Below, piece by piece: positions 9,916-48,202 of a stretch of 64,000 nt of DNA. The first letter of the stretch is position 1. The number at the start of each line of letters is the position of its first letter. This DNA comes from Pseudomonas borbori (GTDB taxonomy: Bacteria; Pseudomonadota; Gammaproteobacteria; Pseudomonadales; Pseudomonadaceae), in contig NZ_FOWX01000012.1 of assembly GCF_900115555.1 (NCBI RefSeq), positions 1 to 64,000 on the forward strand. The letters run 5' to 3'. Both the position numbers and the translations under genes were made by a program. The notes beneath the pieces were generated by a model, which saw nothing but the letters and a program-made list of their open reading frames with translations, had not been told where the DNA came from and did no database searches.

Positions 9916-9973
9916 AAAAACCGTCCTAGACTGCGGTCCACCCAGGGACAGCCCTCAAGCCACGGAGACACCG

Positions 9974-11008: not shown

Positions 11009-12481
<1,473 letters not shown>

Positions 12482-12494
12482 CCACCGAAACCCT

Positions 12495-12549
12495 TGTAGG
12501 AGCGGGCCATGCCCGCGATAGCGTTTCGTGGGCATGGCCCGCTCCTACA
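12495..12549. repeat. Dispersed palindrome (TAGGAGCGGGCCATG family)
   Basis: Long imperfect inverted repeat: TGTAGGAGCGGGCCATGCCC pairs with the arm ending GGGCATGGCCCGCTCCTACA. A second copy with the same arms lies between recD and recB (44579-44645). It sits directly after the betB stop and may act as an mRNA stem loop. Confidence 0.85.
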
Positions 12550-12565
12550 CAGTGATCACCACCCC

Positions 12566-12625
12566 GTAGCCCGGATGTAATCCGGGAACAGTCACCGCGT
12601 TTTCCCGGATTGCATCCGGGCTACA
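12566..12625. repeat. Dispersed palindrome (GTAGCCCGGATG family)
   Basis: GTAGCCCGGATGTAATCCGG pairs with CCGGATTGCATCCGGGCTAC. Its right end runs into the AGGAG ribosome site of betA, so the repeat forms most of the betA leader. A diverged half-copy (TTCCCGGATTTCATCCGGAC) lies at about 39161-39180. Confidence 0.85.
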
Positions 12626-12634
12626 GGAGCTTCC

Positions 12635-14320
12635 ATGTCCCAAGAATTCGACTACATCATCATCGGCGCCGGCTCGGCCGGTAACGTGCTGGCCACCCGC
12701 CTGAGCGAAGACCAGGACGTCAGCGTGCTGCTGCTGGAAGCCGGCGGCCCCGACTACCGCCTAGATTTTCGCACCCAGATGCCCGCCGCACTGGCCTTCC
12801 CGCTGCAGGGCCGGCGTTACAACTGGGCCTACGAGACCGAGCCGGAACCCTTCATGAACAACCGGCGCATGGAGTGCGGACGCGGCAAAGGTCTCGGCGG
12901 CTCGTCCCTGATCAACGGCATGTGCTACATCCGTGGCAACGCCCTCGACTACGATGGCTGGGCCAAGGAGAAGGGCCTGGAAGACTGGACCTACCTGGAT
13001 TGCCTGCCGTATTTCAGAAAAGCAGAAACCAGGGACAGCGGCGCCAACGCCTACCACGGTGGCGACGGCCCGGTCAGCGTATGCACGCCGAAGAACGGCA
13101 ACAACCCGCTGTTCCACGCCATGGTCGAGGCCGGGGTGCAGGCCGGCTACCCGCGCACCGACGATCTGAACGGCTACCAGCAGGAAGGCTTCGGCCCGAT
13201 GGACCGCACCGTCACCCCACAGGGCCGGCGCGCCAGCACCGCGCGCGGCTATCTGGACCAGGCCCGCGGCCGGCCGAACCTGCGCATCGTCACCCACGCC
13301 CTCACCGAGCGCATCCTGTTCAGCGGCAAGCGCGCCGTCGGCGTGGCCTACCTGCACGGCGACAGCAACACCCCGACCACCGTCAATGCGCGCCGCGAAG
13401 TGCTGCTGTGCAGCGGCGCCATCGCTTCGCCGCAGATCCTGCAGCGCTCCGGGGTCGGCCCGGCGGCGCTGCTGCGCGAGCTCGACATCCCGCTGGTGCA
13501 TGATCTGCCCGGGGTCGGCGAGAACCTCCAGGACCACCTGGAGCTGTACCTGCAGTACGCCTGCAAGCAGCCGGTGTCGCTCTATCCGGCGCTGCAATGG
13601 TGGAACCAGCCGCCGATCGGCGCCAAATGGCTGCTGCTCGGCAAGGGCACCGGCGCCAGCAACCAGTTCGAGGCCGGCGGCTTCATCCGCACCCGCGCCG
13701 AGTTCGAGTGGCCGAATATCCAGTACCACTTCCTGCCGGTGGCGATCAATTACAACGGCAGCAACGCGGTCAGGGAGCACGGTTTCCAGGCCCATATGGG
13801 CTCCATGCGTTCGCCGAGCCGCGGCCGCATCCGGGCGAAATCCAAGGACCCGCGCCAGCACCCGAGCATCCTGTTCAACTACATGAGCAGCCCGCAGGAC
13901 TGGCAGGAATTCCGCGACGGCATCCGCATCACCCGCGAGATCATGAGCCAGTCGGCGCTCGATCCCTTCCGCGGCCGCGAACTGAGCCCGGGCAAGGAGG
14001 TGCAGAGCGACGCCGAGCTGGACGCCTTCATCCGCGAACATGCGGAAACCGCCTTCCACCCCTCCTGCTCCTGCAAGATGGGCGAGGACGAAATGGCAGT
14101 GGTCGACGGCCAGGGCCGGGTGCACGGTATCGAAGGGCTGCGGGTGGTCGATGCCTCGATCATGCCGCTGATCACCACCGGCAACCTCAACGCGCCGACC
14201 ATCATGATGGCCGAGAAGATCGCCGACAAAATCCGCGGGCGTACCCCGCTGCCGCGCAGCACCGCGCCCTACTACGTGGCGGGCGGCGCGCCGGTGCGAA
14301 ACACCCCGCAGCGTAACTAG
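12635..14320 (+). CDS. betA: Choline dehydrogenase
   Basis: 561-residue GMC-family flavoprotein that oxidises choline to betaine aldehyde at the inner membrane. The FAD-binding motif [18 protein letters not shown] is at the N-terminus, followed by the GMC signatures [15 protein letters not shown] and the [15 protein letters not shown] region. The C-terminal catalytic histidine segment [10 protein letters not shown] and [14 protein letters not shown] are present. AGGAG sits ten bases before ATG 12635. It is convergent with the sigma-factor gene, with only three bases between the two stop codons. Confidence 0.96.
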
Positions 14321-35279: not shown

Positions 35280-36041
35280 ATGGAGTGGCTGACCAGTCCA
35301 GAAATCTGGATCGCCTTCTTGACCCTGACCGCCCTGGAAATCGTCCTCGGCATCGACAACATCATCATGATCGCCATCCTGGTCGGGCGCATGCCGCCGC
35401 ACATGCAGGCGCGCACCCGCCTGTTCGGCCTGGCCCTGGCGATGGTCACGCGCATCATGCTGCTGCTGTCGATCACCTGGATCATGCGCCTGACCACCGA
35501 CCTGTTCGAGTTGTTCGGTCAGGGCATCTCCGGCCGCGACCTGATCCTGTTCTTCGGTGGCCTGTTCCTTCTATGGAAGAGCAGCAGCGAGATCTACCAC
35601 GGCCTGGAAGGCGAAGACGAGTCCCAGCAGACGCCCAACGGCGCGGCGCGCAACTTCATCGGCACCATCATCCAGATCGCCATCATCGACATCGTCTTCT
35701 CGCTGGACTCGGTGATCACCGCCGTCGGCATGGTCGACCACGTGCCGGTCATGGTCGCCGCCATCATCGTCGCCGTGCTGGTGATGATGCTGGCCGCCGG
35801 TACCATCAGTGCCTTCATCGACAAGCATCCGTCGCTGAAGATGCTGGCGCTGTCGTTCCTCACCGTGGTCGGTACCGTGCTGATCGCCGAAGCCTTCGAA
35901 GTGCATGTGCCAAAAGGTTACGTCTACTTCGCCATGGCCTTCTCGCTGGCGGTGGAAGCGATCAACATCCGCATGCGCACCGCGCGTGGCGGCAAGGCCG
36001 TGGAGCCGGTCAAGCTGCGCATGGATATTCCGGGCGAGTAA
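35280..36041 (+). CDS. TerC-family integral membrane protein
   Basis: 253 residues with seven or more hydrophobic segments and the TerC acidic membrane motifs: EIVLGIDNIIMIAIL near the N-terminus and IVFSLDSVITAVGM in the second half, each with an intramembrane aspartate. TerC/Alx/MeeY-type proteins are linked to metal (manganese) export and tellurium resistance. It ends in a strong terminator and has no operon partner. Confidence 0.88.
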   Translation: MEWLTSPEIWIAFLTLTALEIVLGIDNIIMIAILVGRMPPHMQARTRLFGLALAMVTRIMLLLSITWIMRLTTDLFELFGQGISGRDLILFFGGLFLLWKSSSEIYHGLEGEDESQQTPNGAARNFIGTIIQIAIIDIVFSLDSVITAVGMVDHVPVMVAAIIVAVLVMMLAAGTISAFIDKHPSLKMLALSFLTVVGTVLIAEAFEVHVPKGYVYFAMAFSLAVEAINIRMRTARGGKAVEPVKLRMDIPGE

Positions 36042-36062
36042 AGTCAACCGGATGAACGACAA

Positions 36063-36084
36063 CGGGGCCGCAAGGCCCCGTTTT
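36063..36084 (+). terminator. Rho-independent terminator of the TerC gene
   Basis: CGGGGCC-GCAA-GGCCCCG followed by TTTT, a GNRA-type loop stem 20 bp after the stop. Confidence 0.88.
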
Positions 36085-36085
36085 G

Positions 36086-36563
36086 CTTTCCGCCTGGATG
36101 CCATTCCAGGGTGAACCGCGGCACCGCAACGCGGCGGCTCTGTTCGCGCGCTGGTCGAACGGCATCCTCACCCGCTGTTGGCGGCCGCCAGCCTGCCCCT
36201 GCTGCTGATGCTGGTGGCGGGTTGAAGGCTTGACTTGTCAGGCGTTAAAAATATTGGACTACCCCGCATGCTAAAAACGAAAATATATTCGTTTAAAAAC
36301 AGCTATATAGGCCAATATTTCGCAGTGCCCAGCAGAGCGAGCGCTCGGTTTCCCCCACAAATAGCGCATCATTCGTTTGACATATTTTACGGCTTTGGCA
36401 GACTGGGCCGGTGTTTCGACGGCCAGAGCGCGCCGGGAACAGGCTCAATCGCCTCGCTCCCGACACGCCTGCGCCGCCTAGCAGGCAACAAACAGGAAGC
36501 AGCGCCGCCGCGCCGGCCCTTCCTGCACAGCAACGGCAGGCCCTCCCTGCCCCAAGGTGATCT
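36086..36563. other. Intergenic region upstream of the gamma-glutamyl-GABA hydrolase
   Basis: About 480 bp without a supportable gene. 36150-36225 reads in one frame ...LVERHPHPLLAAASLPLLLM..., ending in a stop at 36225, and may be the tail of a lost membrane protein. 36235-36330 is AT-rich (AAAAATATTGG, AAAATATATTCG) and probably holds the promoter of the downstream hydrolase. Confidence 0.35.
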
Positions 36564-37352
36564 ATGTCCAACAACAACAGCGGCAAACGCAAGCCCGTGG
36601 TCCTCATGTCCATGGGCGTTCAGGAACGTAAAGGGCATGCCTATCAGGTGATGACCCACAAATACATTGTCCCCCTCGTCGAGCTCTCCGGCTGCGTACC
36701 GCTACTGGCACCGACCTGCTGCGGCAGCGACGACCTCGAGCAATACCTCGACATGGTCGACGGCGTGTACCTCACCGGCGCCGGCAGCAACATCGACCCG
36801 GCGCTCTACAACCAGGAAAACCTCACCCCGGACAAGGCCCAGGACCGCGATCGCGACCTGTTCGACCTGCCGCTGATCCGCGCCGCCATCGCCCGTGGCC
36901 TGCCGCTCTTCGGCATCTGCCGCGGCATGCAGGAAATCAACGTGGCCCTGGGTGGCGACATCCACCAGAAACTCTATGCCGTCGGCGACTTCGACGACCA
37001 CCGCGAAGACTCCGACGACCCGGTGGATGTGCAGTACGGCGAAAGCCACAGCGTGCGCCTGGTAGCCGGCAGCTGGCTGGCCGAGTTGCTGGGCAAGGAT
37101 GAGATCAGCACCAACTCGCTGCACGGCCAGGGCATCGCCACCCTGGGCGAAGGCCTCGAGCCGCTGGCCTACGCCGAAGACGGCCTGATCGAAGCCATCC
37201 ATGCGCCCGGCCTGGCGCAGTTCACCCTCGCCGTGCAGTGGCACCCGGAATGGCAGGCCAGCGCAAATCCCGACTCGGTGAAAATCTTCCAGGCCTTCGG
37301 CGCGGCCTGCCGCCAGCGCATGGCGCAGACCACGCCGGCGAACCACCGCTAG
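36564..37352 (+). CDS. puuD: Gamma-glutamyl-gamma-aminobutyrate hydrolase (PuuD-type)
   Basis: 262-residue class I glutamine-amidotransferase-like hydrolase. The nucleophile is C119 in LFGICRGMQEIN, and the His-Glu pair is in VQWHPEW; the TGAGSNIDP loop is family-typical. It releases GABA from gamma-glutamyl-GABA in putrescine catabolism. Pseudomonas carries several paralogues, and this one is not beside other polyamine genes here, so the exact substrate may differ. Confidence 0.85.
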   Translation: MSNNNSGKRKPVVLMSMGVQERKGHAYQVMTHKYIVPLVELSGCVPLLAPTCCGSDDLEQYLDMVDGVYLTGAGSNIDPALYNQENLTPDKAQDRDRDLFDLPLIRAAIARGLPLFGICRGMQEINVALGGDIHQKLYAVGDFDDHREDSDDPVDVQYGESHSVRLVAGSWLAELLGKDEISTNSLHGQGIATLGEGLEPLAYAEDGLIEAIHAPGLAQFTLAVQWHPEWQASANPDSVKIFQAFGAACRQRMAQTTPANHR

Positions 37353-37410
37353 CCGACCGCGCTTGCGCGGCCGAGCACCTGCACGCAGACGCTCGGCCGG
37401 GGTTGGCGGG

Positions 37411-39093
37411 CTATTCGAGGGTGAACCACTGCACCTCGACCCGGCGGTTCTGCTCGCTGTCGGCACCGAGCGGCTCTTCCCAGCCACGGCCGACCAGTTC
37501 GATGCGCTCCTCGGCGATCCCCGGATGGCGCGCCAGCAGCGCCTCCTTGACCGCCTGGGTGCGCTGGCGCGACAGCTCCATGGCCTTCAGCGCCATCTTG
37601 CGCAGCAGCGCCGGGCCGCCCTGACGCTCGAACTCGCCGACCATGGCGTTATCCACATGGCCGCGTAGCAGGACGATGGAGCCGGGGCTGACCTGGAGGA
37701 ACTGCTTGATGGTGTCCAGGTAGTCCTGGTTGTCCTTGGCCTGTTTGTCCAGCTCAGCCGAGTTCGGTTCGAAGAAGAAGCGGATGTCCTTGCTCAGCAG
37801 CGCGTCGCCCTCCAGGGCGACCTTGCCGCTGGTGCGGATCGGCGCGATGGCGATGCTCTGGCCCTTGAACTGGCCGCCCTCGGCCAGTGCCTTGAGGTGC
37901 TGCAGATCAGCGAAGCGCGCCGGATCGGCCGGGTTGCGGATCAGCGCACCATAGGCCAGCACCGAAGACTGGAAGATGCCCTGGAAGGAGCCGGCCGAAT
38001 CGATGCTGCCGTCGAAGAACGCCAGGTTTTCCGGCAGGTTGCTCAGGTGCACCTTGCTCAGCTCGTCGAGGGTTTCTTCCGGGGTCCAGCCGAACGCCTG
38101 GGCGACTACGCCGGCATGGCTTTTCGGATCGTCGCGCAGCAGGCGGTTGCCTTCCAGCAGGCCGTGTACCAGGCCCTTGACGATCTGCGGGTGGGCCGTG
38201 GCGAAACCCTTGTTGACCACCAGGATGTCGGCGACCACCAGCAGGTTGCGGTTGGACACCAGCATCTTCGCCGCGCCGGCGGATTCGGCGACCACTTCAT
38301 CGGTACGCGGCGACCAGCCGACGCAGCCGTTCAGGCGCTGCTTGCCGGTCAATTCCGCGGCGTAGGCATCGCAGGCGATAAAGGCATCCTCGTAGAACAC
38401 CAGGCCCAGCTCGTTCGGCCCCGGCCGGGCGTCCAGGTCGCGCAGCACCTTGACCGGCACGCCGGCTTCGGACGCCAGGTAGCGGATGAAGAACTCGCTC
38501 TCGTTGAACTGGGTGGCGCCGAGCACCTTGCCCTTGAGCTGATTGACGCTGGCGATGGCGCTGTCCACCACCACCTGGTCGGCGCCGCGGGAGAAGGCGA
38601 TCTGCGCCGGCACCGTGACCTCGAACTGCCGGCCGAGCACGGCCAGCACATCGGCAGTGGTGGCCACCGCGGCCATCTGACCGTTGTTCAGCGCCGACCA
38701 TTCCTCGCTCTCGCCCTTGCTCAGGCGCACCTGGAAGCCGTACTGCTTGGCGAAGAAGGAGTCGGGGTTGGGCGCCAGCCCGCCGTTGGCGACGATCAGC
38801 CCGCCGTAACCGGCGTACTCGCTCATGTCGACGTCGATGATGTTGTTCTTCATCTCGTAGGGCGCGGCCGATTGCAGGGTCGGCGTACCGCTTACCGGCT
38901 CGACCGGCACAGGCCCGCCGTCCACCCCGAGGCTGGCGGGCAGGCCGCCGAGCACGCTGTCGCCACCTTCCTTGAGCATGTCCTTGCCGACCAGCCAGGC
39001 GCCCAGGCCAAGCAGGCCGAGCACCAGCACTATGGTCAGCAACTTGCCGGCGGCATTGCCGCGCTGGCGCGCCCTGGGTGCGAATAGATACAT
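37411..39093 (-). CDS. Inner-membrane-anchored NMT1-type binding domain fused to OmpA domain
   Basis: 560 residues from ATG 39093 (GGGAGAGG upstream). One N-terminal membrane helix (LLTIVLVLGLLGLGAWLVG, ~17-35) anchors the protein, facing the periplasm. Residues ~85-400 form a NitT/TauT (NMT1)-like solute-binding domain (YGGLIVANGGLAPNPDSFFAK, QIAFSRGADQVVVDSAIA, NKGFATAHPQIVKGLVHGLL). Residues ~430-560 are OmpA-like (IRFFFEPNSAELD, LLRGHVDNAMV, ELVGRGWEEPL, QNRRVEVQW), expected to bind peptidoglycan. No transporter genes lie nearby, so it probably senses or tethers. It is last in the PspA/AAA cluster but separated from it by 211 bp with repeats. Confidence 0.82.
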   Translation of the reverse strand: MYLFAPRARQRGNAAGKLLTIVLVLGLLGLGAWLVGKDMLKEGGDSVLGGLPASLGVDGGPVPVEPVSGTPTLQSAAPYEMKNNIIDVDMSEYAGYGGLIVANGGLAPNPDSFFAKQYGFQVRLSKGESEEWSALNNGQMAAVATTADVLAVLGRQFEVTVPAQIAFSRGADQVVVDSAIASVNQLKGKVLGATQFNESEFFIRYLASEAGVPVKVLRDLDARPGPNELGLVFYEDAFIACDAYAAELTGKQRLNGCVGWSPRTDEVVAESAGAAKMLVSNRNLLVVADILVVNKGFATAHPQIVKGLVHGLLEGNRLLRDDPKSHAGVVAQAFGWTPEETLDELSKVHLSNLPENLAFFDGSIDSAGSFQGIFQSSVLAYGALIRNPADPARFADLQHLKALAEGGQFKGQSIAIAPIRTSGKVALEGDALLSKDIRFFFEPNSAELDKQAKDNQDYLDTIKQFLQVSPGSIVLLRGHVDNAMVGEFERQGGPALLRKMALKAMELSRQRTQAVKEALLARHPGIAEERIELVGRGWEEPLGADSEQNRRVEVQWFTLE

Positions 39094-39160
39094 GACGCCT
39101 CTCCCTGTCGGATGCGGGCCAGCGGCCCGCCAATCAAAAGTGTTCATAGCCTAAATCGCT

Positions 39161-39265
39161 TCCCGGATTTCATCCGGACTACGGTCTGCGACAACGTAGG
39201 GTGGATAACGCCTTTTTCATCCACCATCGTCGATGGTGGATGGGTGAAGCGTCATCCACCCTACC
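39161..39265. repeat. Two dispersed repeat fragments inside the PspA/AAA cluster
   Basis: A half-copy of the CCGGATG family (TTCCCGGATTTCATCCGGAC, about 39161-39180) is followed by an inverted repeat at 39196-39265 with arms GTAGGGTGGATAACG and CGTCATCCACCCTAC and an inner palindrome CCACCATCGTCGATGGTGG. It lies between the coiled-coil gene and the OmpA-fusion gene and may attenuate read-through. Confidence 0.75.
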
Positions 39266-39304
39266 CAGATCCGTGACCCGGATAAGCCTGGGTGCAGCAG
39301 CCCA

Positions 39305-40162
39305 TCAGTGTCGAAGCGACTGGCCTTGCGCCGGCTTGTCGCCCTGGCCTTGCAGCACATAGCGCGGCAGGCTCTGTTGTTCGTCGAGTTCGAGCACGCC
39401 GAGCAGGTCGCGCTGGCTGTTCAGCCAGCGGCTGGCCTCGTTGAACGAGCTGGTCAGGGCGTTCAGCGCCAGGCCGATCTGTTCCTCGTCGGTGGCCAGC
39501 AGGGTCTGTTCGCGGATCAGGGCGATCTGCTGCTCGATGCGCTGCAGCTCGGCATCCACATGCTCCTGGCGCCGCAGGCCTTCGACATGGGCCGCCTGGC
39601 GCGCGTCTATCACCTGCTTCTGCTGTTCCAGGCTGCGGCGCAGTTCGTCGCTCAGCTCGGCGGCGGCCAGGCGCAGATCGATCTGTTCTTCCTGCTGCTG
39701 CAACTCGGCGCTGTCGCGGGCGGCGGTGTCCGCCACCACGCTCAGCGCCTGGCCGGCGACCAGCAGGCGCAGGTTGAGCCACACCAGTTGCTCCAGGCTG
39801 GCGGCGTGCGAGGCCATCAACGGCGAGCGCGCCAGCAGTTGCAGCACCTCGCGGGCGCGCGCCTCGACCTGCTGCTGACGCTGGCGCTGCGCCGCATCGA
39901 GCAGGGCCAGGCTGGCCTCGTAACGTTGTCCGGCAGGGTCGACCGGCTGCACTTGCCGGGCATCCACGCTGCGACGAAAACGCGCGTTGCGCGCCAGCAG
40001 CGCCAGATAAGCCAGCTCCAGGCCGGCGCCAAGGACCCAAAAGCCGGGGCTGACAAAGGCGCCCAACAAGCCGAACGCCGCCAGGCCGAACCAGTTCGGC
40101 GCCAGCGGCATGCCCAGCGGGCGGGCATTGAAGGCCGCCCATAGGTAGCGTCCGCCACTCAT
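39305..40162 (-). CDS. Membrane-anchored coiled-coil protein
   Basis: 285 residues. The N-terminal ~60 residues hold two hydrophobic segments (WFGLAAFGLLGAFVSPGFWVLGAG, LELAYLALLA). The rest is a long charged helix, strongly coiled coil (AQRQRQQQVEARAREVLQLLA, LQQQEEQIDLRLAAAELSDEL, LEQQKQVIDARQAAHVEGLRR), with no cysteines or enzyme motifs. I do not recognise a named function. Its ATG overlaps the stop of the AAA ATPase gene (ATGA), so it is translationally coupled to it. It is probably a scaffold linking the ATPase or PspA protein to the inner membrane. Confidence 0.8.
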   Translation of the reverse strand: MSGGRYLWAAFNARPLGMPLAPNWFGLAAFGLLGAFVSPGFWVLGAGLELAYLALLARNARFRRSVDARQVQPVDPAGQRYEASLALLDAAQRQRQQQVEARAREVLQLLARSPLMASHAASLEQLVWLNLRLLVAGQALSVVADTAARDSAELQQQEEQIDLRLAAAELSDELRRSLEQQKQVIDARQAAHVEGLRRQEHVDAELQRIEQQIALIREQTLLATDEEQIGLALNALTSSFNEASRWLNSQRDLLGVLELDEQQSLPRYVLQGQGDKPAQGQSLRH

Positions 40163-41808
40163 GGGCTGAGGTTCTCGTCGGCGAGATGGCGCAGGGACTC
40201 GGGCACGAAGGCCATGTCGGTGGCTTCGCGGATGGCGATGCTCATCTGCAGGCGCAGCACCTGCTCGGCCACCGGCGGCTGGTAACCCTGCAGGCAATGC
40301 TCGAGCGCTGCCAAGGGCTGCATCTGCGCGGTGCGCACCTGACGGTAGACCTTCACCGCCAGCGCCTCGGCGGCGCCCGGAGTGAGCAGCAAGGGTAGCG
40401 GCAACTTCACCAGCGCCTTGCTTTCCAGCTTGAGCTCGAAGCGCTTGAGCAGGGCCCTGAGCAGCGCCGCGCTCTCCTCGATTGTGGTGGTCGGCAGCAG
40501 CGGGATCTTCACATCGACCCGACCCGGACGCTTGAGGTCGACCTCGATCAGGTCGGGGCGCGAGGAGGCGAGAATCCAGATCACCTTGCCGCGGTTGTCG
40601 GCGTCGCCCATCTCCTGGGCGATCATCGAGTAGAGGCGCCCGGACAGGCCACTGTCGCCACTGCCGCCATCGCGCTTGCCGAGGGTCTGGTCGGCTTCGT
40701 CGATAAATACGATGCAGCGGCCGAGGCCACGGATCAGGCGGAAGATCTTCTCCAGGTTGCCTTCGCTGGAACCGACCCAACGGTCGCGGAAGTTCTTCAG
40801 CTTGACCACCGGCACCCCGGCCTCGCCGGCCAGGCACTCGACCAGGTAGGTCTTGCCGGTGCCGACCGGGCCGCAAAAGATGTAGCCCTTGGGCAGCGCG
40901 CGCAGGTCGGCGGCCTGCCAGAGCGCCATGTCCTGACGCAGCCAGACTTTCAGCGCGTCCTGGGCGTGGTAATCGTCCAGGGTGCGCTTGGATTCGATGA
41001 ATTCCACCAGGCCGGCGCTGTCGGTTTCCACCAGCTGCTTCTTGGCTTCGACCCAGTCCTGGGCGCCGAGCACCTTGCCCTGGTGGGCGCGGCGCTTGAC
41101 CAGGCTGGCCAGGGCGCTGAGGCTGACCCCGGCCAGGGCCTGCACCGCGCCGTTATCCTCGGCGGCGAAGGCCTTGGGGTGGTCCAGGCGCAGCTGCGCC
41201 AGGCACTGGCCGAGGCTGTCGGCATCCGGCAGCGGCACCTGCACCCGGTCGATGCGCGGGTTATTGGCCACCAGCGGATGCAGGTCATTGAGGTTGTCGG
41301 CGAGCAGCAGGCTGGCGAAGGCCATATCGGCGAACGGCGGCTCGGCAGCCCAGTCGCGCACCAGGCTGGCCAGGCTGGCGCTGGCGAAATCGCCCTGACG
41401 GCTGGCCGGCAGCACCAGCTCGGCGCCGCGCAGGATCACCGCCACATGTTCGCTGTCGCCGCGGCCCAGCGCCTGCAGGTTGGCGCGGTAACGCAGGTAG
41501 CGGCTGATCAGCTCGATCGCCGCGCGCGGCTCATGGGGCCAGGGCTGGATCTTTTCCGCCGCCGGCCACTGGGCGAAACGCTCGCCGCCGCGCAACAGAC
41601 TGAGGCCGTTGCCCGGATCGTAGAGAAACACCAGGTCGAAGGTGCCGAGCAGCCTGGCCTCCAGGTAGCGGGTCAGGCTGACCAGGCGACCGTCCAGCGG
41701 GAAGCGGTCGGCGACATTGCCATAGAGCACGAACTGGCCGTGGGCGCCGCTCTCGTAGGCCAGGCGCAGCTCGTCGAGCCAGGCGGGTGCTTTGCCTTCA
41801 CTGCTCAT
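40159..41808 (-). CDS. AAA ATPase with degenerate N-terminal AAA-like half
   Basis: 549 residues. The C-terminal half is a classical AAA domain: Walker A GPVGTGKT (313-320), Walker B CIVFIDEAD (D370, E371), sensor-1 region WILASSRPD and arginine-finger region LKRPGRVD. The N-terminal ~290 residues look like a degenerate P-loop domain without Walker A (FVLYGNVADRF, HVAVILRGAELVLP, NNPRIDRVQVPLPDADSL), an architecture reminiscent of Ycf46-type AAA proteins. It lies 9 bp after the PspA-like gene and overlaps the coiled-coil gene. Given the ESCRT-III-related neighbour, a Vps4-like role in remodelling PspA polymers is plausible but unproven. Confidence 0.87.
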   Translation of the reverse strand: MSSEGKAPAWLDELRLAYESGAHGQFVLYGNVADRFPLDGRLVSLTRYLEARLLGTFDLVFLYDPGNGLSLLRGGERFAQWPAAEKIQPWPHEPRAAIELISRYLRYRANLQALGRGDSEHVAVILRGAELVLPASRQGDFASASLASLVRDWAAEPPFADMAFASLLLADNLNDLHPLVANNPRIDRVQVPLPDADSLGQCLAQLRLDHPKAFAAEDNGAVQALAGVSLSALASLVKRRAHQGKVLGAQDWVEAKKQLVETDSAGLVEFIESKRTLDDYHAQDALKVWLRQDMALWQAADLRALPKGYIFCGPVGTGKTYLVECLAGEAGVPVVKLKNFRDRWVGSSEGNLEKIFRLIRGLGRCIVFIDEADQTLGKRDGGSGDSGLSGRLYSMIAQEMGDADNRGKVIWILASSRPDLIEVDLKRPGRVDVKIPLLPTTTIEESAALLRALLKRFELKLESKALVKLPLPLLLTPGAAEALAVKVYRQVRTAQMQPLAALEHCLQGYQPPVAEQVLRLQMSIAIREATDMAFVPESLRHLADENLSP

Positions 41809-41817
41809 GGGCGCGCC

Positions 41818-42573
41818 TTACTGGCTTTCGGATTGCGGGTTGCTACCACCCATACTGCGATTGGCCGGCGCCTCGGGGGTGGCCTCCTGGCCCGGCAGGC
41901 TGATGCCTTCCTTGGCGGCGAAATCGGCCAGGGCCTGGTCGGCCAGGGCGTCCATCTCGGCTTCCTTGAGGTTCACTTCGCTCATGTCCATCGAGTCGCG
42001 GGCCATGCGCGCGCGGCCAGCGGCCTGGGTGCGTTCTTCCTCGACCATCTCGTGCAGGCGGTTGAGGGTGTCGCCGGAGCCGCCGATGCTGCTGACCATG
42101 CCGGCGGCCATCTCGTTCATCTCGGCCATGGCGGTCTTCATGCGCAGGTCGTTGATCGCGCCCTTGAGCGCCTCGATCTTGCTGCGCGCGGCGGCCACCG
42201 CCACTTCGCGGGCCTTGGTCAGGTTCTGGTAGGTCTCCTCGGCCTGGGCCAGCTGGCGGCGGTTTTCCTCCAGCTCGCGGCCAAGGTTCTGCAGGCGCAG
42301 GGCGTTCTGCGCGGCGGCCGACTTGTTGCCGGCGCGCAGGTGCGCGGTGGTGCGCGCATGCAGCTCGCGCTCCTCGGCCTCCTGCTTGCGCACCTGGCTC
42401 ATCAGCCGCTCGGCCAGGCCGGCATGGGCGGCCAGGCCCTGGTTGAAGTTGGCGATCTGCTTGCGCAGGTTCTCCTGTTCCAGCTCCAGCAGGGCTTCCG
42501 GGTTCTTGCGCTCCAGGTCCTTGATGAACAGGGAGAGGATGCCTTTGAAGATATTGGTCAGACGAAAGAACAT
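41818..42573 (-). CDS. PspA/IM30-family protein
   Basis: 251 residues, MFFRLTNIFKGILSLFIKDLE..., then long alpha-helical hairpins (LEQENLRKQIANFNQGLAAHA, RELEENRRQLAQAEETYQNL, SKIEALKGAINDLRMKTAMAEM) and a disordered acidic/Ser-rich tail. The N-terminal amphipathic helix fits membrane binding by PspA/Vipp1, which are ESCRT-III homologues. AAGGAG precedes ATG 42573. No pspB, pspC or pspF is adjacent, so this is not the classical Psp operon. It is the first gene of a cluster with an AAA ATPase and coiled-coil protein. Confidence 0.88.
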   Translation of the reverse strand: MFFRLTNIFKGILSLFIKDLERKNPEALLELEQENLRKQIANFNQGLAAHAGLAERLMSQVRKQEAEERELHARTTAHLRAGNKSAAAQNALRLQNLGRELEENRRQLAQAEETYQNLTKAREVAVAAARSKIEALKGAINDLRMKTAMAEMNEMAAGMVSSIGGSGDTLNRLHEMVEEERTQAAGRARMARDSMDMSEVNLKEAEMDALADQALADFAAKEGISLPGQEATPEAPANRSMGGSNPQSESQ

Positions 42574-42730
42574 GGTGTCTCCTTGCGCTATGCGGGCAAT
42601 CCATCGGTACCGGCGCCGCCGGTCAGGCTTGGCGCATTCTTGGCGAGCGCGTCGATTGTTGCAACCTTCTCGGCAATTGGCCGGACTCGGGCCACGACTG
42701 CCGGCGATGGGCACCATCCTACAAAGGCGG

Positions 42731-44566
42731 CTAGAACAGCGGCAGCTGAGCGTGACCGGCGCCGCTCGCGGGCGGCGCTGCAGGCCCGGGCTGGGTGGCC
42801 GGGTCGACAGCCAGGCGCTCGGCCAGGCCCGCCGCGCGCTCGGCGCGGGTGGCGACCGCCTCGCCCAGGCGCGCCGGCAGGCCCCAGATTTCCACCTTGT
42901 GCTTGGCCCGGGTGATGCCGGTGTAGAACAGGCTGCGGCTCAGCAGCGGGCTGGGTTGTTCGGGCAGGACCAACAGCACTTCGGAAAATTCCGAGCCCTG
43001 GCTCTTGTGCACGGTCATGGCGAAGGCGCTGTCGTGGCTGGGCAGCCGCGCCGGGGCGAAGGGCCGGTAGCCGGCCTCGCCTTCGAAGAACACCCGCAGA
43101 CCGAACTCGCTGTGCAGGCAGATGCCGATATCGCCGTTGAACAAACCGAGGGCGTAGTCGTTCTGCCGCACCATCACCGGCCGGCCGACATACCAGCGTT
43201 CGCGGCTGGCGACCTGATTGCGCCTTTTCACCCGCGCCTCCAGCGCTTCGTTGATGCCGGCCACGCCCCAGCTACCTTCGCGCTGGGCGCAGAGGGCGCG
43301 GAAGTCGTTGAAGGCGGCAAAGGCCGCCTGCGGATCGGCGCTTTTCGCCGCGGCGAGAAAGGGCGCATAGCCGCGATCCAGCCGTTCCAGCAGATCGGCG
43401 GGGGTCGGCTGGGCGTTCCAGGCCAGGTCGCTACGCTGTTCTTTGAGCAAACTCAGGGTGCCGCTGACGTCGCCGCCGTTGATCCGCCGGGCCAGCTCGC
43501 CGATGCCGCTGTCGCCGGCGAAGCGGTGGCTGTGGGTCAGCAGCACCACGGCATCGCCCAGGCGTGAAGTGGGTGGTGCGACCGCTACCGGCTGGCCGGT
43601 GATGCGCTGCAGGTCGGCAGCGGCCTGGGCGTCGAAGCCGCGGCCTTCGCAGAGTTCGGCGAATACCGCGCCGGCTTCCACCGCACAGAGTTGGTCCTTG
43701 TCGCCGAGCAGGATCAGCCGCGCGTTGGGCGGCAGGGCATCGACCAGTTTGGCCATCAGCGCCAGGTCGACCATCGAGGCTTCGTCGACCACCAGCACGT
43801 CCAGCGCCAGCGGGTTGGCTGCGTTATGGCGTACCTGCGGGCTGTCGCCACGGCTGCCGAGCAGGCGGTGCAGGGTGCGCGCCTCGTCCGGCAGAGCCGC
43901 CCTGATCGCCTCGCTGACCGGCAGGCTGGCCTTGGCATTGCGGATCGCCTCGGCCATGCGCGCCGCCGCCTTGCCGGTGGGTGCGGCCAGGCCGATGGCC
44001 AGCCGAGCGCCGCCTGGCTGCTCCAGCAACGCGGCGAGCAGGCGCACCACGGTGGTGGTCTTGCCGGTGCCGGGGCCGCCGGAAATCACCGCCAGCCGGC
44101 GCCGCACCGCCTGGGCGGCGGCCAGGCGTTGCCAGTCCGGTTGCTGGGCGTTGAAGGCGAACAGGCGGGTCAGGCTTTCGCTCAGCTGCGCCTCATCGAC
44201 GGCTGGTAGAGCGGCGGCGCGGCTAAGCAGCTGTTCGGCGAGCTGGCGTTCGTAGACCTGGTAGCGCGCCAGATAGAGGCGCTCGCCGACCAGAATCAGC
44301 GGGGTGAAGTCGCCGTCGGTGCCGACCAGGGACGAGGCGGCAAGCCGCACCTGCCACTCGGCCAGCGGCGGCAGGCAGAAGCCGTGTTCCGGCCAGGGCC
44401 GCTGCCCGGCGCGTCGGGCCAGCGGCAGGCAGACATCGCCGTTATCCAGCGCCGCACAGAGCAGCGCGGCCGAGGCCAGCACCAGCGGTTCGGCGGCCGG
44501 GTCGAGGCGGCGCAAGCTGTCGACCAGGGCGCGCTCCAGCGGGCCGAGGGGCAGATCAGGCAGCAT
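42731..44566 (-). CDS. recD: Exodeoxyribonuclease V alpha subunit (RecD)
   Basis: 611-residue 5'-3' helicase of the RecBCD complex. Walker A is GGPGTGKTTTVVRLLAAL, the Walker B-type motif is LDVLVVDEASMVDLALM, and the C-terminal helicase motif is TVHKSQGSEFSEVLLVLP. ATG 44566 (MLPDLPLGPLERALVD) is chosen for GGAG upstream; a longer frame runs into the repeat. It is third in recC-recB-recD order and separated from recB by a palindromic repeat. Confidence 0.95.
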   Translation of the reverse strand: MLPDLPLGPLERALVDSLRRLDPAAEPLVLASAALLCAALDNGDVCLPLARRAGQRPWPEHGFCLPPLAEWQVRLAASSLVGTDGDFTPLILVGERLYLARYQVYERQLAEQLLSRAAALPAVDEAQLSESLTRLFAFNAQQPDWQRLAAAQAVRRRLAVISGGPGTGKTTTVVRLLAALLEQPGGARLAIGLAAPTGKAAARMAEAIRNAKASLPVSEAIRAALPDEARTLHRLLGSRGDSPQVRHNAANPLALDVLVVDEASMVDLALMAKLVDALPPNARLILLGDKDQLCAVEAGAVFAELCEGRGFDAQAAADLQRITGQPVAVAPPTSRLGDAVVLLTHSHRFAGDSGIGELARRINGGDVSGTLSLLKEQRSDLAWNAQPTPADLLERLDRGYAPFLAAAKSADPQAAFAAFNDFRALCAQREGSWGVAGINEALEARVKRRNQVASRERWYVGRPVMVRQNDYALGLFNGDIGICLHSEFGLRVFFEGEAGYRPFAPARLPSHDSAFAMTVHKSQGSEFSEVLLVLPEQPSPLLSRSLFYTGITRAKHKVEIWGLPARLGEAVATRAERAAGLAERLAVDPATQPGPAAPPASGAGHAQLPLF

Positions 44567-44578
44567 GGCGGTACTCCG

Positions 44579-44645
44579 GTAGGAGCGGGCCATGTCCGCG
44601 ATGCTCTTGCGCCGTCGAATTTTCGCGGGCATGGCCCGCTCCTAC
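44579..44645. repeat. Dispersed palindrome between recB and recD
   Basis: Arms GTAGGAGCGGGCCATGTCCG and GCGGGCATGGCCCGCTCCTA then C around ~27 bp; same family as the copy after betB (12495-12549). It fills nearly the whole recB-recD gap. Confidence 0.85.
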
Positions 44646-44656
44646 AAAAGCTGCCA

Positions 44657-47600
44657 TCACCCCTCTCCTTCGAACAGCTTATCCAACGCATCCAGCAGCT
44701 CATCGCCGGGCCGCGAGAAATACACCCCGGCCGTTGGCATGCCGCGCAGGAACAGGTAGTAGGCGCCGCCCAGCTGGCTGTTATCGAAGTCGCTCAGGCG
44801 CTGGCGCAGGAAGCGCCGCAGCGCCACCAGGTAGATAAGGTATTGCAGGTAGTAGTGCTCGCCGGCCAGGGCCTGGAGCAGGCGTTCGCCGCCGTAGTAG
44901 CTGGCGTCCGGGCCGAGCCAGTTGGATTTGTAGTCGGCGATGTACCAGCGCCCATCGTGCTCGAAGGTCAGGTCGATAAAGCCCTTGAGGAAGCCTTTCA
45001 GGTTGTCGAACTCCAGGCGTGCGGCGGCTTCGCGCATCGGCACGGCCAGGCCATGAGCCGGATCGCTGAGGATCGCCCGCAGGCGCTGCAGGTCGAGATT
45101 GGCCACCGGGAAGGTGAAGCCAAGTTCCGGCAGGCGCCGCGCCGCGTGTAGGCTGGCCAAGGTCAGGCCATTGCCGTCGAGGTCGCTGTCGAGCACCTGC
45201 TGCAATTGGCTCAGCGCCACCTCGCTCCAGTCGCTGTCGATGCCGTGGCCGCGCAGCGCCGGTTCGATCAGCTCGGCCAGGGTTGCCTTGCCGCGCGCCC
45301 AGTCCTCCAGAATCGCGTGCAGGCAGGTGCCGGCGCGGGCGCCGCGGGGGAAGGCGAAGAAGCCACTGCCCGGCTCGCTGGCGGCGGGCAGCACCAGGCC
45401 GTCGCGGTCCGGCGCCTCCATGTGCATGCCGGAGGCCAGCCCGGAGAAGCTGCCGATGCGCCAGGCGCTGTGCAGGCTGCGGTTCATCTGCTGCAGCTGC
45501 AGGGGCGGCCGCGCACGGCGTTCACCGGCGGCGCTGGCTTCGCTGTCGCGCAACGCCTGCACGGCCATATGGCCGTGGCTGGCGCCCACCAGCTGCTCGA
45601 TCTCGCCGCGCAGGCCAGCAGGGCCGAGGGCCTGCAGATGGCCGGCGAGTTCGCCCAGGGCATCCTCGCCGGGCAGCTGGCGACCGTGCAGCAGCCAGGC
45701 CAGGGCGCTGCTGTGCAGGCCGGCCTCGCTGAGGCTGCCGTCCTTTTTCGGCTTGCAGTCCACCGGCCCCCAGTGCAGCCAGAGGCGGTCACGGGCCCGG
45801 GTCAGGGCCACGTAGGTCAGGCGCAGGCGCTCGGCGAAGCGCTCGTGGCGGGCGCGCTCACGGTGGACGTCGAACTGCTCGCCACCCAGGTCGAGCAGCG
45901 GCGTGCCGTCGTCGGCGTGGCAGCTGATGTCTTCGCTCTGGCGCAGCAGCGCGCCGTCCCACAGGTAGGGGCAGAACACCAGCGGGTATTCCAGGCCCTT
46001 GGCGGTATGGATGGTGACGATCTGCACCCGCTCGGCATCGCTTTCCAGGCGCAGCAGGGCTTCTTCGCCGTGGGCCTCGGCGCTGCGCTGGGCGTTGAAC
46101 CAGCTCAGCAGTTGTTCCAGCCCGGGGCGTTGCAGGCTCTCGCTCTGCAGCAGTTCGGCCAGGTGCAGCAGGTTGGTCAGGCGCCGTTCGCCATCGACCA
46201 GGGCGAGCAGGCGCGGCGCCACCTGCTGCTCGTCCAGCCAGGCGCGGAAGGCGCGCATGAAACCCTGTTGCTGCCAGAGCTGGTGATAGCGCTCGGCGGC
46301 TTCGCGCTCGGCATCCCAGGCCTGGGCGTCGTCCTGGCAGGCGGCCAGATCGGCGGCGCTGCGGCCGAGCAGACGGCTGGCCAGGGCATAGCGCAGTGCG
46401 CCTTCGCGGCCCGGCTCGGCATAGGCGGCCAGCACCGCGGCCAGTTCGCCGGCCTCTTCGCTGTGCCAGACGTTTTCCTTGCCGCGGCGCACGCTGGGCA
46501 CGCCGCGCGCCGCCAGTTCGGCGGCGACTTCGCCGGCCTGGCGGTGGCTGGCGACCAGCACCGCGATATCGCCGCCTTTCAGCAAGGTGCGCTCGCCCGA
46601 CGCCTCGAAATAGGCCTCGCCACGGCCGCTCGCGGTCAGCAGCGTGGCGATGCGTCGGGCCGTGTCGCGAGCCACCAGGGCGCCGGCCTCGCCTTTGCCG
46701 AGGTAATCGTCGGCCAGCCAGACCAGCGCCAATGGTGCGTCCTGTTCGGCATCGACAACCGGCAGTACCAGCTGCGGCCGCGCCCGCTGGCTGGCGCCGA
46801 CCTGCGGATAGGCCAGGCCCTTTTCGGCGAAGGGCATGGGCCGGTCGAACAACTGGTTGAGCGCGGCGATCAGCTCCGGCGTCGAACGGTGGTTGGTGGC
46901 CAGGCTGTACTGGCGCGCGGCTTCGGCGCGGGCCTGGAGGTAGGTGGCCAGGTCCGCGCCCCTGAAGGCGTAGATCGCCTGCTTGGGGTCGCCGACAAAA
47001 CACAGGTCGCCCTGGTTTTCGTAGATCCGCCGGAACACCTGGTATTGCACCGGGTCGGTGTCCTGGAACTCGTCGATCAGCGCCACCGGGTACTGTTCGC
47101 GCAGGGTGCCGGCCAGGTGGTCGCCACCCTCGCCATAGAGCGCCTGTTGCAGTTTGTTGAGCAGGTCGTCGAAGGCCAGTAGGCGCTGGGCCGCCTTGCG
47201 TTGCGGCAACTGCTCATTGAGCTGGCCGATCAGGCGTACCTGCAGGTCGATCAGGCGCTGCTCGGCTTCGGGCTGCGCGGCCTGCAGCGCCTCGCACAGG
47301 CCTTGCAGGGCATCGGCCAGCGGGCTATCCGGCGCGCTTTCGCCTTTCTTGCTGGCCTTGGCCAGGCCTTCGCGGGACAGCCGCTGGTGCGCCTCGGTCT
47401 TGCCGAACAGCGCGGCGACGTCGCTGAAGTAACCGTCCAGCTCGGCCTGCCAGGCGCCGAGCTTGGCCGGGTTGCACATATTGCTCTTGAAGCCGGCGAA
47501 GGCCTTGAGCTGCTGCAGCCACTCACCGCTCAGTTGCTGCCAGGCATCCCGCGCCTGCTGCCAGGCGTGGCGCAATGCGCTCATCTCGCTGCTGGCACCG

Positions 47601-48202
47601 GGCGGCGGCTCGATGCGCAGGTAGGGCTTGCCCAGGTGGTTGCGCAGACGCTGACGCAGGCTCTGCGGGGTGATCTTCTGCTGTACCAGGAAGGCCGCCC
47701 ACTCCGGCTCGGCGGCCGCCAGCTCGTGGCGCCAGAGGTCGGCGAGCAGGGCGTCGAGGATTTCGCGGTCGTCGTGGGTCAGCTCGTTGTCGAAATCGCC
47801 GCCGGCCTCGAACGCCGCATCCTGCAACGCACGCTGACAGAAGCCGTGGATGGTGAAGATCGCCGCCTCGTCGAAGCCGTGCACCGCCAGCAGCAGACGC
47901 CGATGACTGGCCGTATCCGGGTACTGCGCGTGCAGGCGGTTGAGCAAGTCGTCCGCGCCTGGGCCGTTGTCGTAGACCGCCAGCAGCTCGGCCAGGCGCA
48001 GACGAATGCGTTCGCGCAATTCGGCGGTGGCCGCGGTGGTAAAGGTCACCACCAGAATCTGGCTGACGTTGAGCCGTTTCTCCAGCAACAGCCGGGCGTA
48101 GAGGGCGGTGAGGGTCCAGGTCTTGCCGGTGCCGGCGCTGGCCTCGATCAGCGAGCGGCCGGCGAAGCTGTCCTGCAGCAGATCCAAAGGCGCGCTGGTC
48201 AT
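44657..48202 (-). CDS. recB: Exodeoxyribonuclease V beta subunit (RecB)
   Basis: 1181 residues. UvrD-like helicase domain: Walker A EASAGTGKTWTLTALYARLL near the N-terminus, VALIDEFQDTDPVQYQVFRRIY (motif II), and TIHTAKGLEYPLVFCPY (motif V). The C-terminal RecB nuclease domain carries GFIDLTFEHDGRWYIADYKSNWLG (here cited as landmark positions about 1080-1105), with the catalytic D and K of the DYKS motif. It repairs double-strand breaks and processes ends at Chi. The ATG overlaps the recC stop by four bases. Confidence 0.96.
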   Translation of the reverse strand: MTSAPLDLLQDSFAGRSLIEASAGTGKTWTLTALYARLLLEKRLNVSQILVVTFTTAATAELRERIRLRLAELLAVYDNGPGADDLLNRLHAQYPDTASHRRLLLAVHGFDEAAIFTIHGFCQRALQDAAFEAGGDFDNELTHDDREILDALLADLWRHELAAAEPEWAAFLVQQKITPQSLRQRLRNHLGKPYLRIEPPPGASSEMSALRHAWQQARDAWQQLSGEWLQQLKAFAGFKSNMCNPAKLGAWQAELDGYFSDVAALFGKTEAHQRLSREGLAKASKKGESAPDSPLADALQGLCEALQAAQPEAEQRLIDLQVRLIGQLNEQLPQRKAAQRLLAFDDLLNKLQQALYGEGGDHLAGTLREQYPVALIDEFQDTDPVQYQVFRRIYENQGDLCFVGDPKQAIYAFRGADLATYLQARAEAARQYSLATNHRSTPELIAALNQLFDRPMPFAEKGLAYPQVGASQRARPQLVLPVVDAEQDAPLALVWLADDYLGKGEAGALVARDTARRIATLLTASGRGEAYFEASGERTLLKGGDIAVLVASHRQAGEVAAELAARGVPSVRRGKENVWHSEEAGELAAVLAAYAEPGREGALRYALASRLLGRSAADLAACQDDAQAWDAEREAAERYHQLWQQQGFMRAFRAWLDEQQVAPRLLALVDGERRLTNLLHLAELLQSESLQRPGLEQLLSWFNAQRSAEAHGEEALLRLESDAERVQIVTIHTAKGLEYPLVFCPYLWDGALLRQSEDISCHADDGTPLLDLGGEQFDVHRERARHERFAERLRLTYVALTRARDRLWLHWGPVDCKPKKDGSLSEAGLHSSALAWLLHGRQLPGEDALGELAGHLQALGPAGLRGEIEQLVGASHGHMAVQALRDSEASAAGERRARPPLQLQQMNRSLHSAWRIGSFSGLASGMHMEAPDRDGLVLPAASEPGSGFFAFPRGARAGTCLHAILEDWARGKATLAELIEPALRGHGIDSDWSEVALSQLQQVLDSDLDGNGLTLASLHAARRLPELGFTFPVANLDLQRLRAILSDPAHGLAVPMREAAARLEFDNLKGFLKGFIDLTFEHDGRWYIADYKSNWLGPDASYYGGERLLQALAGEHYYLQYLIYLVALRRFLRQRLSDFDNSQLGGAYYLFLRGMPTAGVYFSRPGDELLDALDKLFEGEG

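Follow-up and report, generated by a model that had tools for sequence, protein, structure and literature searches.

Gene organization of the locus

The window analysed here, 64,000 nucleotides of contig NZ_FOWX01000012.1 of Pseudomonas borbori, contains four genes on the minus strand between positions 37411 and 42573. In order of transcription they encode a PspA-type protein, a tandem AAA ATPase, a coiled-coil protein and a fusion of a substrate-binding-type domain to OmpA (SBP-OmpA) (Table 1). The preliminary description of this DNA had reported this arrangement, with a 9-base gap and an ATGA overlap, and the coordinates bear it out: pspA ends at 41818 and the ATPase gene starts at 41808, while the latter ends at 40159 and shares 4 bases with the coiled-coil gene, which starts at 40162. 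The open frame of SBP-OmpA opens at 39147; the most likely start, chosen by us, is 39093, which leaves 211 bases after the end of the coiled-coil gene.

Table 1. Features of the four-gene locus, in order of transcription.
Feature	Position	Strand	Basis
pspA-type gene (251 aa); its divergent PspA_IM30 subfamily accompanies a tandem AAA ATPase	41818..42573	-	Pfam
C-terminal [KR]xMG motif, R239-S240-M241-G242, proposed ATPase docking tag	41848..41859	-	tails of homologues
Tandem AAA ATPase, 549 aa; inactive D1 ~8-260, active D2 ~284-545 (predicted)	40159..41808	-	Pfam, model, patterns
Walker A of D2, GPVGTGKT, residues 313-320	40849..40872	-	pattern
Pore-loop-like stretch of D2, RWVGSSE, residues 343-349	40762..40782	-	alignment columns
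Membrane-anchored coiled-coil protein, 285 aa	39305..40162	-	structure prediction; no credible family
SBP/OmpA fusion, 560 aa, inner-membrane anchor	37411..39093	-	Pfam NMT1 + OmpA

Of the flanking genes tested, those upstream on the same strand are RecD- and RecB-like, and those on the other side, on the opposite strand, are a Peptidase_C26/GATase gene and TerC. Sigma-54-like sites occurred at chance level in the window (46 matches with at most 2 mismatches, 42.2 expected); no sigma-70-type promoter was found in 37200-42900 and no Rfam family in 36000-44000. PspB and PspC each gave 0 matches genome-wide, in agreement with their claimed absence. A mobile origin was rejected: no plasmid match was obtained by DNA, nor by protein at E 1e-30, and viral contigs contained no relative of the coiled-coil protein. 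Matches to the AAA ATPase on 10 viral contigs are 25-33% identical and limited to parts of D2. A role in anti-phage defence was also discarded: the IetA models match via the AAA domain only, and the coiled-coil matches are weak.

Conservation of the gene set

The ATPase is 97% identical to its homologue in Pseudomonas tumuqii. Of 335 relatives, the scan covered the best 80, and the figures on the 82 ATPase loci given here therefore describe the nearest ones. Within this set (best 80 of 335), the coiled-coil gene was found at 65/82 loci and an SBP-OmpA gene or piece at 54/82 (5 of the 54 being pieces). Conservation as neighbours, proposed earlier as a check, was confirmed for the central pair: the AAA-type PspA is present at the same locus as the ATPase in 76 of the 82 cases (nearest relatives, best 80 of 335). 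The set spans several phyla and, because it recurs across them, is more than a chance association. The 82 loci include one duplicate pair (L022 and L057, same contig, identical PspA); for L022 and L023 the flanks covered 1.5 kb, the PspA gene in L047 is split over two frames, and that of L095 begins at a contig end.

The association was also assessed at the level of genomes. In 38 searchable genomes with the ATPase (of 39 picked by us from the ATPase loci), the AAA-type PspA was present at the locus in 33 and elsewhere in the assembly in 5. Among 299 Pseudomonadota genomes, 2 have the AAA-linked PspA subfamily, both together with a full-length ATPase; a third AAA match (G445, 241.5 bits) has only a weakly PspA-like neighbour, which counts against our main reading. 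So does the outcome for 174 Verrucomicrobiota genomes, in which, at strict cut-offs, the ATPase matches (G748, G807, G924) and the AAA-type PspA matches (G748, G801, G810) agree in one genome, G748. In G807 and G924 the ATPase is adjoined only by a weakly PspA-like gene (E ~1e-8) that does not have the C-terminal motif described below.

PspA and its C-terminal motif

The PspA protein matches PspA_IM30 (PF04012) with 39.8 bits against a cut-off of 33.9, over residues 2-220 (positions 3-216 of the 220 of the model), and is the one such match in the whole genome. A profile of 42 PspA sequences matched none of the solved PspA/Vipp1 chains, even at E 10, which counts against the main reading; polymerisation on the membrane is assumed for this protein.

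The tails of AAA-linked PspAs consist of a variable linker followed by [KR]xM(G). The motif is present in its strict form in 67/76 and in its relaxed form in 75/76 of these proteins (nearest relatives, best 80 of 335), and neither form is found in 34 other PspAs, 10 of which are paralogues from ATPase-bearing genomes. Shuffled tails yielded on average 0.6 strict matches (maximum 4) and 5.1 relaxed ones (maximum 17). Because several rows are close relatives, we repeated the count on 25 representatives with less than 75% identity, and obtained 21/25 (strict) and 24/25 (relaxed). The motif control comprised 65 loci; L125, L126 and L131 (below Pfam cut-off) were without PspA by the models and were dropped, and two AAA-type genes appear in it twice (L156/L171 and L157/L172). 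The strict motif is kept in three AAA-type PspAs that do not adjoin their ATPase (L167, L168, L169); of the other two located away from it, L171 (RANVLGP) has neither form and L172 (KKEMTP) the relaxed form only. These two, and the 9/76 AAA-linked PspAs without the strict motif, of which L091 also lacks the relaxed one, count against the main reading.

Such a distribution would be expected of a docking tag, and we regard the motif as a candidate tag, although its target may instead be a different partner or the membrane. A more specific alternative, which we consider improbable, is that the tail regulates the membrane or the polymer, unrelated to the ATPase, and was inherited through an old operon-borne subfamily. 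Motif and subfamily are indeed confounded by descent, and the C-terminal extension of Vipp1 is reported to regulate self-association (PMC8281802), but the motif is missing from the two AAA-type PspAs that occur without a tandem ATPase in the genome (G801 and G810; best AAA-profile matches 67-68 bits), although this counts as one event, on a long branch. Judged by frame length and pattern, these and other weak AAA matches are probably FtsH-like. The PspA tree, in which the last 45 residues were left out and L047, L057 and L095 were omitted, contains many unresolved forks as well as long branches. The tail motif, specific to AAA-linked PspAs in the sequences compared, is new in this analysis; the main text of Ravi et al. 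2024 (PMC11237479), supplement aside, makes no mention of a C-terminal or conserved PspA motif.

The tandem AAA ATPase

The Pfam AAA match (89.5 bits) covers residues 310-435. The Walker A, Walker B and KRxGRxD patterns of D2 are present in 82/82 sequences and a Walker A pattern in residues 1-250 in 0/82, and the pore-loop-like residues W344, G346 and E349 are kept in 83/83 rows, that is, the window and its 82 nearest relatives (all counts for the best 80 of 335). We take the RWVGSSE stretch to be pore loop 1, after Vps4/p97. Some relatives have Lys for Arg in this stretch, and an Arg-only pattern fits 51/82 (best 80 of 335).

In structure comparisons the best whole-chain match of the ATPase model was Cdc48/p97 (Z 19.3, 462 aligned residues, rmsd 7.0); the Vps4 AAA core gave a Z of 18.7 over 258 aligned residues with an rmsd of 3.4. 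Vps4 has a single AAA module with a beta domain. The model shows one helix (9-19) leading directly into the D1 AAA fold, and its residues 440-549 are helical and strand-free, with no beta domain; no MIT domain was matched by Pfam up to E 1. Because of this architecture (tandem AAA modules, no MIT, no beta domain) orthology to Vps4 was rejected. The enzyme is Cdc48-like, with an inactive D1 and an active D2 as predicted from its motifs, and at most an analogue of Vps4. The ESCRT-III/Vps4-like system put forward in the preliminary description is thus supported in part: the ATPase and the PspA type travel together, and the tail motif found here is in line with it, but a likeness to Vps4 itself is not supported.

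The coiled-coil protein and SBP-OmpA

The coiled-coil protein is predicted to form a membrane hairpin (22-36 and 40-58) followed by a long helical hairpin (114-166 and 172-222; pLDDT 87.7). Neither Pfam nor other family models gave a credible family. Against solved structures, the best match (E 0.0013) was pneumococcal surface protein A, an unrelated namesake of PspA. A fold search yielded nothing above the helical background (best E 0.52), and a second one a best Z of 9.8, in the range typical of helical bundles, with no ESCRT-III/PspA chain among the 50 matches listed, an absence that does not exclude such a relation. The TM 'Snf7' named in the main text of Ravi et al. (PMC11237479) may be this protein; a membrane hairpin is predicted for it, and hhalign gives a probability with PspA of 0.6 on a scale of 0-100. 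Homology to PspA/Snf7 was not detected by profile, sequence-versus-structure or fold comparison.

Where the AAA and coiled-coil genes are adjacent, they overlap in 44 of 48 cases, and 15/65 coiled-coil proteins share a weak ending of the [GS]E[STLGR] type (shuffled mean 2.0, maximum 7; best 80 of 335 relatives). The overlap also speaks for the main reading; both observations would fit an ATPase that acts mainly on the coiled-coil protein, or on clients presented by it, with PspA as a membrane-protecting bystander. We find this very improbable: the smallest sets consist of PspA and AAA, with no detectable coiled-coil gene at 17/82 AAA loci (best 80 of 335 relatives), and the strong, widespread terminal motif belongs to PspA and not to the coiled-coil protein.

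SBP-OmpA has a hydrophobic anchor (~17-36), an NMT1/SsuA-like part (119-345) and an OmpA domain (440-552). The Pfam scores are 41.7 bits for OmpA and 20.5 bits, exactly at the cut-off, for NMT1; in NCBIfam the SBP part is matched best by SsuA, at 33.9 bits, a score far under the cut-off of that model. No lipobox pattern was found in 49 long homologues. OmpA-like peptidoglycan-binding sites have a conserved Asp and Arg. Here, D481 and R511, as well as H479, are each kept in 49/49 rows having a residue at that position.

In relatives, SBP-OmpA accompanies an ABC transporter; none is present beside the Pseudomonas-type operon. The SsuA match and these transporter genes bear on a further possibility, a rather unlikely one in our view, in which the set is an accessory of an ABC importer: SBP-OmpA would capture an SsuA/TauA-type solute, PspA and the ATPase would keep the membrane surrounding the transporter organised or protected, and the Pseudomonas-type operon would be a reduced ligand sensor. 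An SsuBC-like ABC transporter is added at some Verrucomicrobiota, Planctomycetota and Sumerlaeota loci. The row SBP-OmpA, permease, ABC ATPase, coiled-coil, PspA, AAA occurs in L073, L084, L089 and L101; the permease, tested in three of them (L073, L084, L101), is BPD_transp_1. In 7 loci (those four, L088, L100 and L102) an ABC ATPase gene lies immediately before the coiled-coil gene. In Lak megaphages, SBP-OmpA comes together with an ABC ATPase and a permease-like gene; the 25-kb stretch showed no AAA relative. A transport link was also proposed by Ravi et al. 2024 (PMC11237479). However, the permease cluster (c21) is found in no Pseudomonadota locus, the ABC gene in L038, 128 bases after SBP-OmpA, is of another look, and minimal PspA-AAA loci, several of which end at contig edges, have no SBP or ABC gene alongside.

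Proposed mechanism

Overall, we lean slightly towards an ESCRT-III-type system of the bacterial envelope that is equipped with an AAA+ machine of its own, including tag capture and PspA extraction. The gene set and its co-occurrence, the tail motif, the intact D2, the inactive D1 and the residues of peptidoglycan-binding type are features of the sequences; from these we infer the steps that follow. A PspA polymer would form on the cytoplasmic face of the inner membrane, and its flexible C-terminus would offer the [KR]xM(G) tag, to be captured by a hexameric, Cdc48-like tandem ATPase. The active D2 ring may then extract PspA subunits from the polymer, leading to turnover or remodelling. The coiled-coil protein would anchor the ATPase or PspA at the membrane, and SBP-OmpA, in the inner membrane, may tie the site to peptidoglycan and read a periplasmic ligand. 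A wider proposal, which we hold tentatively and would put a little short of even, is that of a bacterial ESCRT-III/ATPase pair of separate evolutionary origin from Vps4, in which [KR]xM(G) recognition is the counterpart of MIT-MIM and PspA turnover is coupled across the inner membrane to a peptidoglycan-anchored solute receptor. The tail motif makes the pairing testable, as one small change should uncouple PspA from the ATPase, and the operon is present in collection strains such as Pseudomonas benzenivorans DSM 8628 (locus L027).

Comparison with known systems

The association of PspA with a tandem AAA+ protein has been published as a genomic prediction by Ravi et al. 2024 (PMC11237479), whose main text lists neighbourhoods with PspA, a tandem AAA+ with inactive N-terminal copy, a TM 'Snf7', an ABC ATPase/permease and PBPB-OmpA (examples OGG56892.1 and AEY64321.1), and already proposes ATP-dependent membrane remodelling. 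The earlier statement that no characterised system has these four parts therefore holds for experiments, as far as we found, and not for the neighbourhood. By description, the P. borbori genes are of like kinds: PspA beside a two-AAA protein with an inactive first copy, and an SBP-OmpA corresponding to the PBPB-OmpA for solute and peptidoglycan. Unlike in that main text, the order is PspA-AAA-CC-SBP/OmpA, no ABC genes lie beside the operon, and a tail motif is described.

With PspFABC of E. coli the locus shares a PspA-family protein, but the genome has no PspB/PspC and the sigma-54-like sites are at chance. Along its whole chain, the ATPase is matched best in structure by tandem ATPases of the classical AAA group, Cdc48/p97 among them; the present enzyme differs in a D1 without Walker A, in having no separate N-domain in the model, and in being encoded in a PspA operon.

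Which ATPase, if any, plays the role of Vps4 for bacterial PspA/Vipp1 was called unclear by Liu et al. 2021 (PMC8281802), and chaperones or PspF have been suggested by Junglas et al. 2024 (PMC11746142). In a survey of ESCRT evolution (PMC10936438), systems of vps4 with ESCRT-III are described as confined to archaea and eukaryotes. The operon resembles ESCRT-III/Vps4 (CdvB/CdvC) in that an ESCRT-III-superfamily protein adjoins a classical-clade AAA protein and that the polymer protein has a short C-terminal motif; it differs in being bacterial and in an ATPase with two AAA modules and without MIT or beta domain. To our knowledge, [KR]xM(G) corresponds to no known MIM. The operon is a compact candidate for an ATPase that would serve PspA as Vps4 serves ESCRT-III.

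Organization and conservation of the operon

The four genes of the operon, encoding PspA, a tandem AAA ATPase, a membrane-anchored coiled-coil protein and a substrate-binding-protein/OmpA fusion (SBP-OmpA), are separated by a 9-base gap (pspA/ATPase), an ATGA overlap (ATPase/coiled-coil) and a 211-base gap (coiled-coil/SBP-OmpA). The genes, their order on one strand, the 9-base gap and the overlap are as given in the preliminary description. The operon's pspA is the only PspA_IM30 match in the genome, and a Pfam search of the whole genome yielded no PspB or PspC; the absence of pspB and pspC claimed earlier holds genome-wide.

Features of the operon, its flank and more distant counterparts (window positions unless a locus is named)
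Feature	Location	Strand	Assignment
pspA	41818-42573	minus	Pfam PspA_IM30
Tandem AAA ATPase	40159-41808	minus	Pfam AAA
Coiled-coil gene	39305-40162	minus	no credible family (Pfam, NCBIfam, PADLOC, PHROGs)
SBP-OmpA gene	37411-39093	minus	Pfam OmpA; NMT1 at its cut-off
recB + recD, operon just downstream	42731-48202		Pfam
Distant relative	L181 (G807) 6947-13512
Distant relative	L182 (G924) 964-8740
PspA-like/AAA pair	L183 (G445) 5553-8927
Phage SBP-OmpA/ABC stretch	L202 10259-15727 (Prevotella phage Lak-A2, MK250019.1)

A full-length ATPase was found in 1 of 79 genomes of the genus sample, the window's own; the remaining 78 gave partial AAA matches (24–35% identity, best E 5e-19). Of the 369 genomes in the class sample, the window's own counted, four gave a match at E 1e-25; the match in G445 spanned residues 255–546 only, with 34% identity. 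A scan of the species-genome collection gave 335 relatives, the best 80 of which were combined with L022 and L023 into 82 loci on 81 distinct contigs. These best 80 included 11 Pseudomonas records, other Pseudomonadota (other Pseudomonadaceae, Lysobacterales, Steroidobacteraceae, Rhodospirillales) and metagenome-assembled genomes of Verrucomicrobiota, Planctomycetota, Acidobacteriota, Sumerlaeota, Deltaproteobacteria/Desulfuromonadales and others. The recB and recD neighbours were retained in 11/11 (cluster c7) and 10/11 (cluster c8) Pseudomonas loci, so the position of the operon is stable in these species, in contrast to the lack of a full-length ATPase in all 78 other sampled congeners.

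The neighbourhood search proposed in the preliminary description placed a PspA of a divergent, AAA-type subfamily at 76, the coiled-coil gene at 65 and SBP-OmpA at 54 (five as pieces) of the 82 loci (best 80 of 335 plus two). In the same set, PspA was directly followed by the ATPase in 63/76 loci, the ATPase by the coiled-coil gene in 48/65 (overlapping in 44 of the 48) and the latter by SBP-OmpA in 47/54 (12 overlapping). The order in Pseudomonadota is PspA-AAA-CC-SBP/OmpA, where CC is the coiled-coil gene. Four loci (L073, L084, L089, L101) read SBP/OmpA-permease-ABC ATPase-CC-PspA-AAA, the ABC genes being confirmed by Pfam in L073, L084 and L101 and assigned by clustering and reading in L089; L023 has CC-AAA-PspA-SBP/OmpA, and other loci PspA-CC-AAA or PspA-AAA. 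In two minimal pairs (L079, L086) a gene for an NfeD-like membrane protein lies downstream of the ATPase; the one tested (L086) scored 21.8 bits against PF24961, under the 26-bit cut-off. Of the six loci lacking PspA, four (L035, L080, L087, L103) start within ~1.8 kb of the ATPase; in each of the five whose genomes were searched (all but L035), an AAA-type PspA was found elsewhere in the assembly, and in G743 it lies ~12 kb from the ATPase on the same contig. Conversely, the AAA-type PspA profile matched 2 of 299 Pseudomonadota genomes, both with the full-length ATPase.

A C-terminal motif in the ATPase-linked PspAs

In the AAA-type PspAs the last conserved helix (ALADFAAxEG) is followed by a linker of 15–32 residues (measured in 66 proteins) and then by [KR]-x-M-G, 0–15 residues before the C-terminal end. 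This strict form occurred within the last 35 residues of 67/76 ATPase-linked PspAs and the relaxed form, [KR]xM, in 75/76 (best 80 of 335 plus two), against means of 0.6 (maximum 4) and 5.1 (maximum 17) after 1000 shuffles per tail. Neither form was present in 34 other PspA-family proteins (24 from the class sample and 10 paralogues from nine ATPase-carrying genomes; 0/34 each). Among 25 representatives of <75% identity, 21 carried the strict and 24 the relaxed motif.

The L091 protein has neither form. A Verrucomicrobiota group has KKEM, KREM or similar, lacking the glycine; L085 and L094 have KTMS, and in L023 the KxMG position reads KEIG, with no relaxed match elsewhere claimed for this protein. 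Exceptions among PspAs away from their ATPase are L171 (RANVLG) and L172 (KKEM). Two Verrucomicrobiota genomes (G801, G810) encode a PspA of the subfamily (252 and 258 bits) without the motif, and the tandem ATPase was not found in them (top AAA-profile match 67–68 bits). Both PspAs share one long branch in an unresolved part of the subfamily tree, and their absence of the motif therefore counts as one event.

A second, weaker ending, [GS]E[STG..], was seen in the last 9 residues of 38/76 PspAs (a count without shuffled control) and in 15/65 coiled-coil proteins (shuffled mean 2.0, maximum 7), mostly in L025–L067.

Properties of the ATPase, coiled-coil protein and SBP-OmpA

The AlphaFold2 model of the ATPase (pLDDT 89.2, 64 sequences) is a tandem AAA protein that matched p97/Cdc48 over the whole chain (Z 19.3, 462 aligned, rmsd 7.0); the second module (D2) alone gave similar scores (Z 18–19) with Vps4, spastin and fidgetin. 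Walker A, Walker B and a KRxGRxD pattern were found in D2 of 82/82 ATPases, a Walker A pattern in the first 250 residues of 0/82, and the Trp of a pore-loop-like stretch in 83/83 alignment rows (window, best 80 of 335 plus two). A MIT domain was absent by Pfam and in the model, and a beta domain was absent in the model. On the tandem architecture and the missing domains, an identity as Vps4 was rejected; the protein would work at most like Vps4.

In the predicted structure of the coiled-coil protein (pLDDT 87.7), a short helix at the start is followed by a membrane hairpin and then by a long helical one; the model matched nothing in the PDB above helical background, and profile comparison revealed no sequence relation to PspA. 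SBP-OmpA carries a hydrophobic anchor at its N-terminus, with no lipobox, and an SsuA/NMT1-like domain, the SsuA score being far under that model's cut-off. Its OmpA domain retains the Asp and Arg typical of peptidoglycan binding in 49/49 proteins.

Distant relatives and phage counterparts

L181 and L182 encode a VWA protein, a weakly PspA-like protein, SBP-OmpA, a coiled-coil protein and a tandem AAA protein; their PspA-like tails share a different end motif, QKI[AS]E. In L183 a weakly PspA-like gene directly precedes a related AAA ATPase, with a TerB-like gene downstream (by eye). In nine Lak megaphage records (tblastn), an SBP-OmpA homologue (E 3.6e-50 against the bacterial profile, one record) adjoins an ABC ATPase (Pfam ABC_tran) and a permease-like gene (phrog_6743; no convincing Pfam match). 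It also lies next to a gene for a membrane coiled-coil protein, which in a small set matched PspA/coiled-coil rows best, though not significantly (E ~0.02). OmpA is unmentioned in the main text of the Lak/huge-phage papers searched.

Relation to published systems

The gene association seen in the operon is real and conserved, and it has been published before. Among the matches listed by literature searches for the gene set there was no experimental study, which agrees with the earlier statement that no characterised Pseudomonas system with these four parts was known, but the association itself was in print (Ravi et al. 2024, PMC11237479). The tail motif was found neither in the main text of that paper nor in a literature search. 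From sequence, we infer a mechanism in which the ATPase may act on PspA, and the motif turns this guess into a specific, cheap test. In the excerpts consulted, Liu et al. 2021 (PMC8281802), Junglas et al. 2024 (PMC11746142) and Makarova et al. 2024 (PMC10936438) leave the question of a bacterial ATPase open or answer it otherwise.

In Ravi et al., PspA occurs together with a protein carrying two AAA copies, the first of them inactive; the authors propose ATP-dependent remodelling and report longer operons with an ABC ATPase, a permease and a PBPB-OmpA protein. The PspA-AAA association is therefore not new. They label a gene of these operons "Snf7 homologue with a TM segment"; this name is not confirmed for the coiled-coil protein, given the lack of a PDB match above background and of a relation to PspA. 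Compared with their longer operons, the window operon is a variant without the ABC genes.
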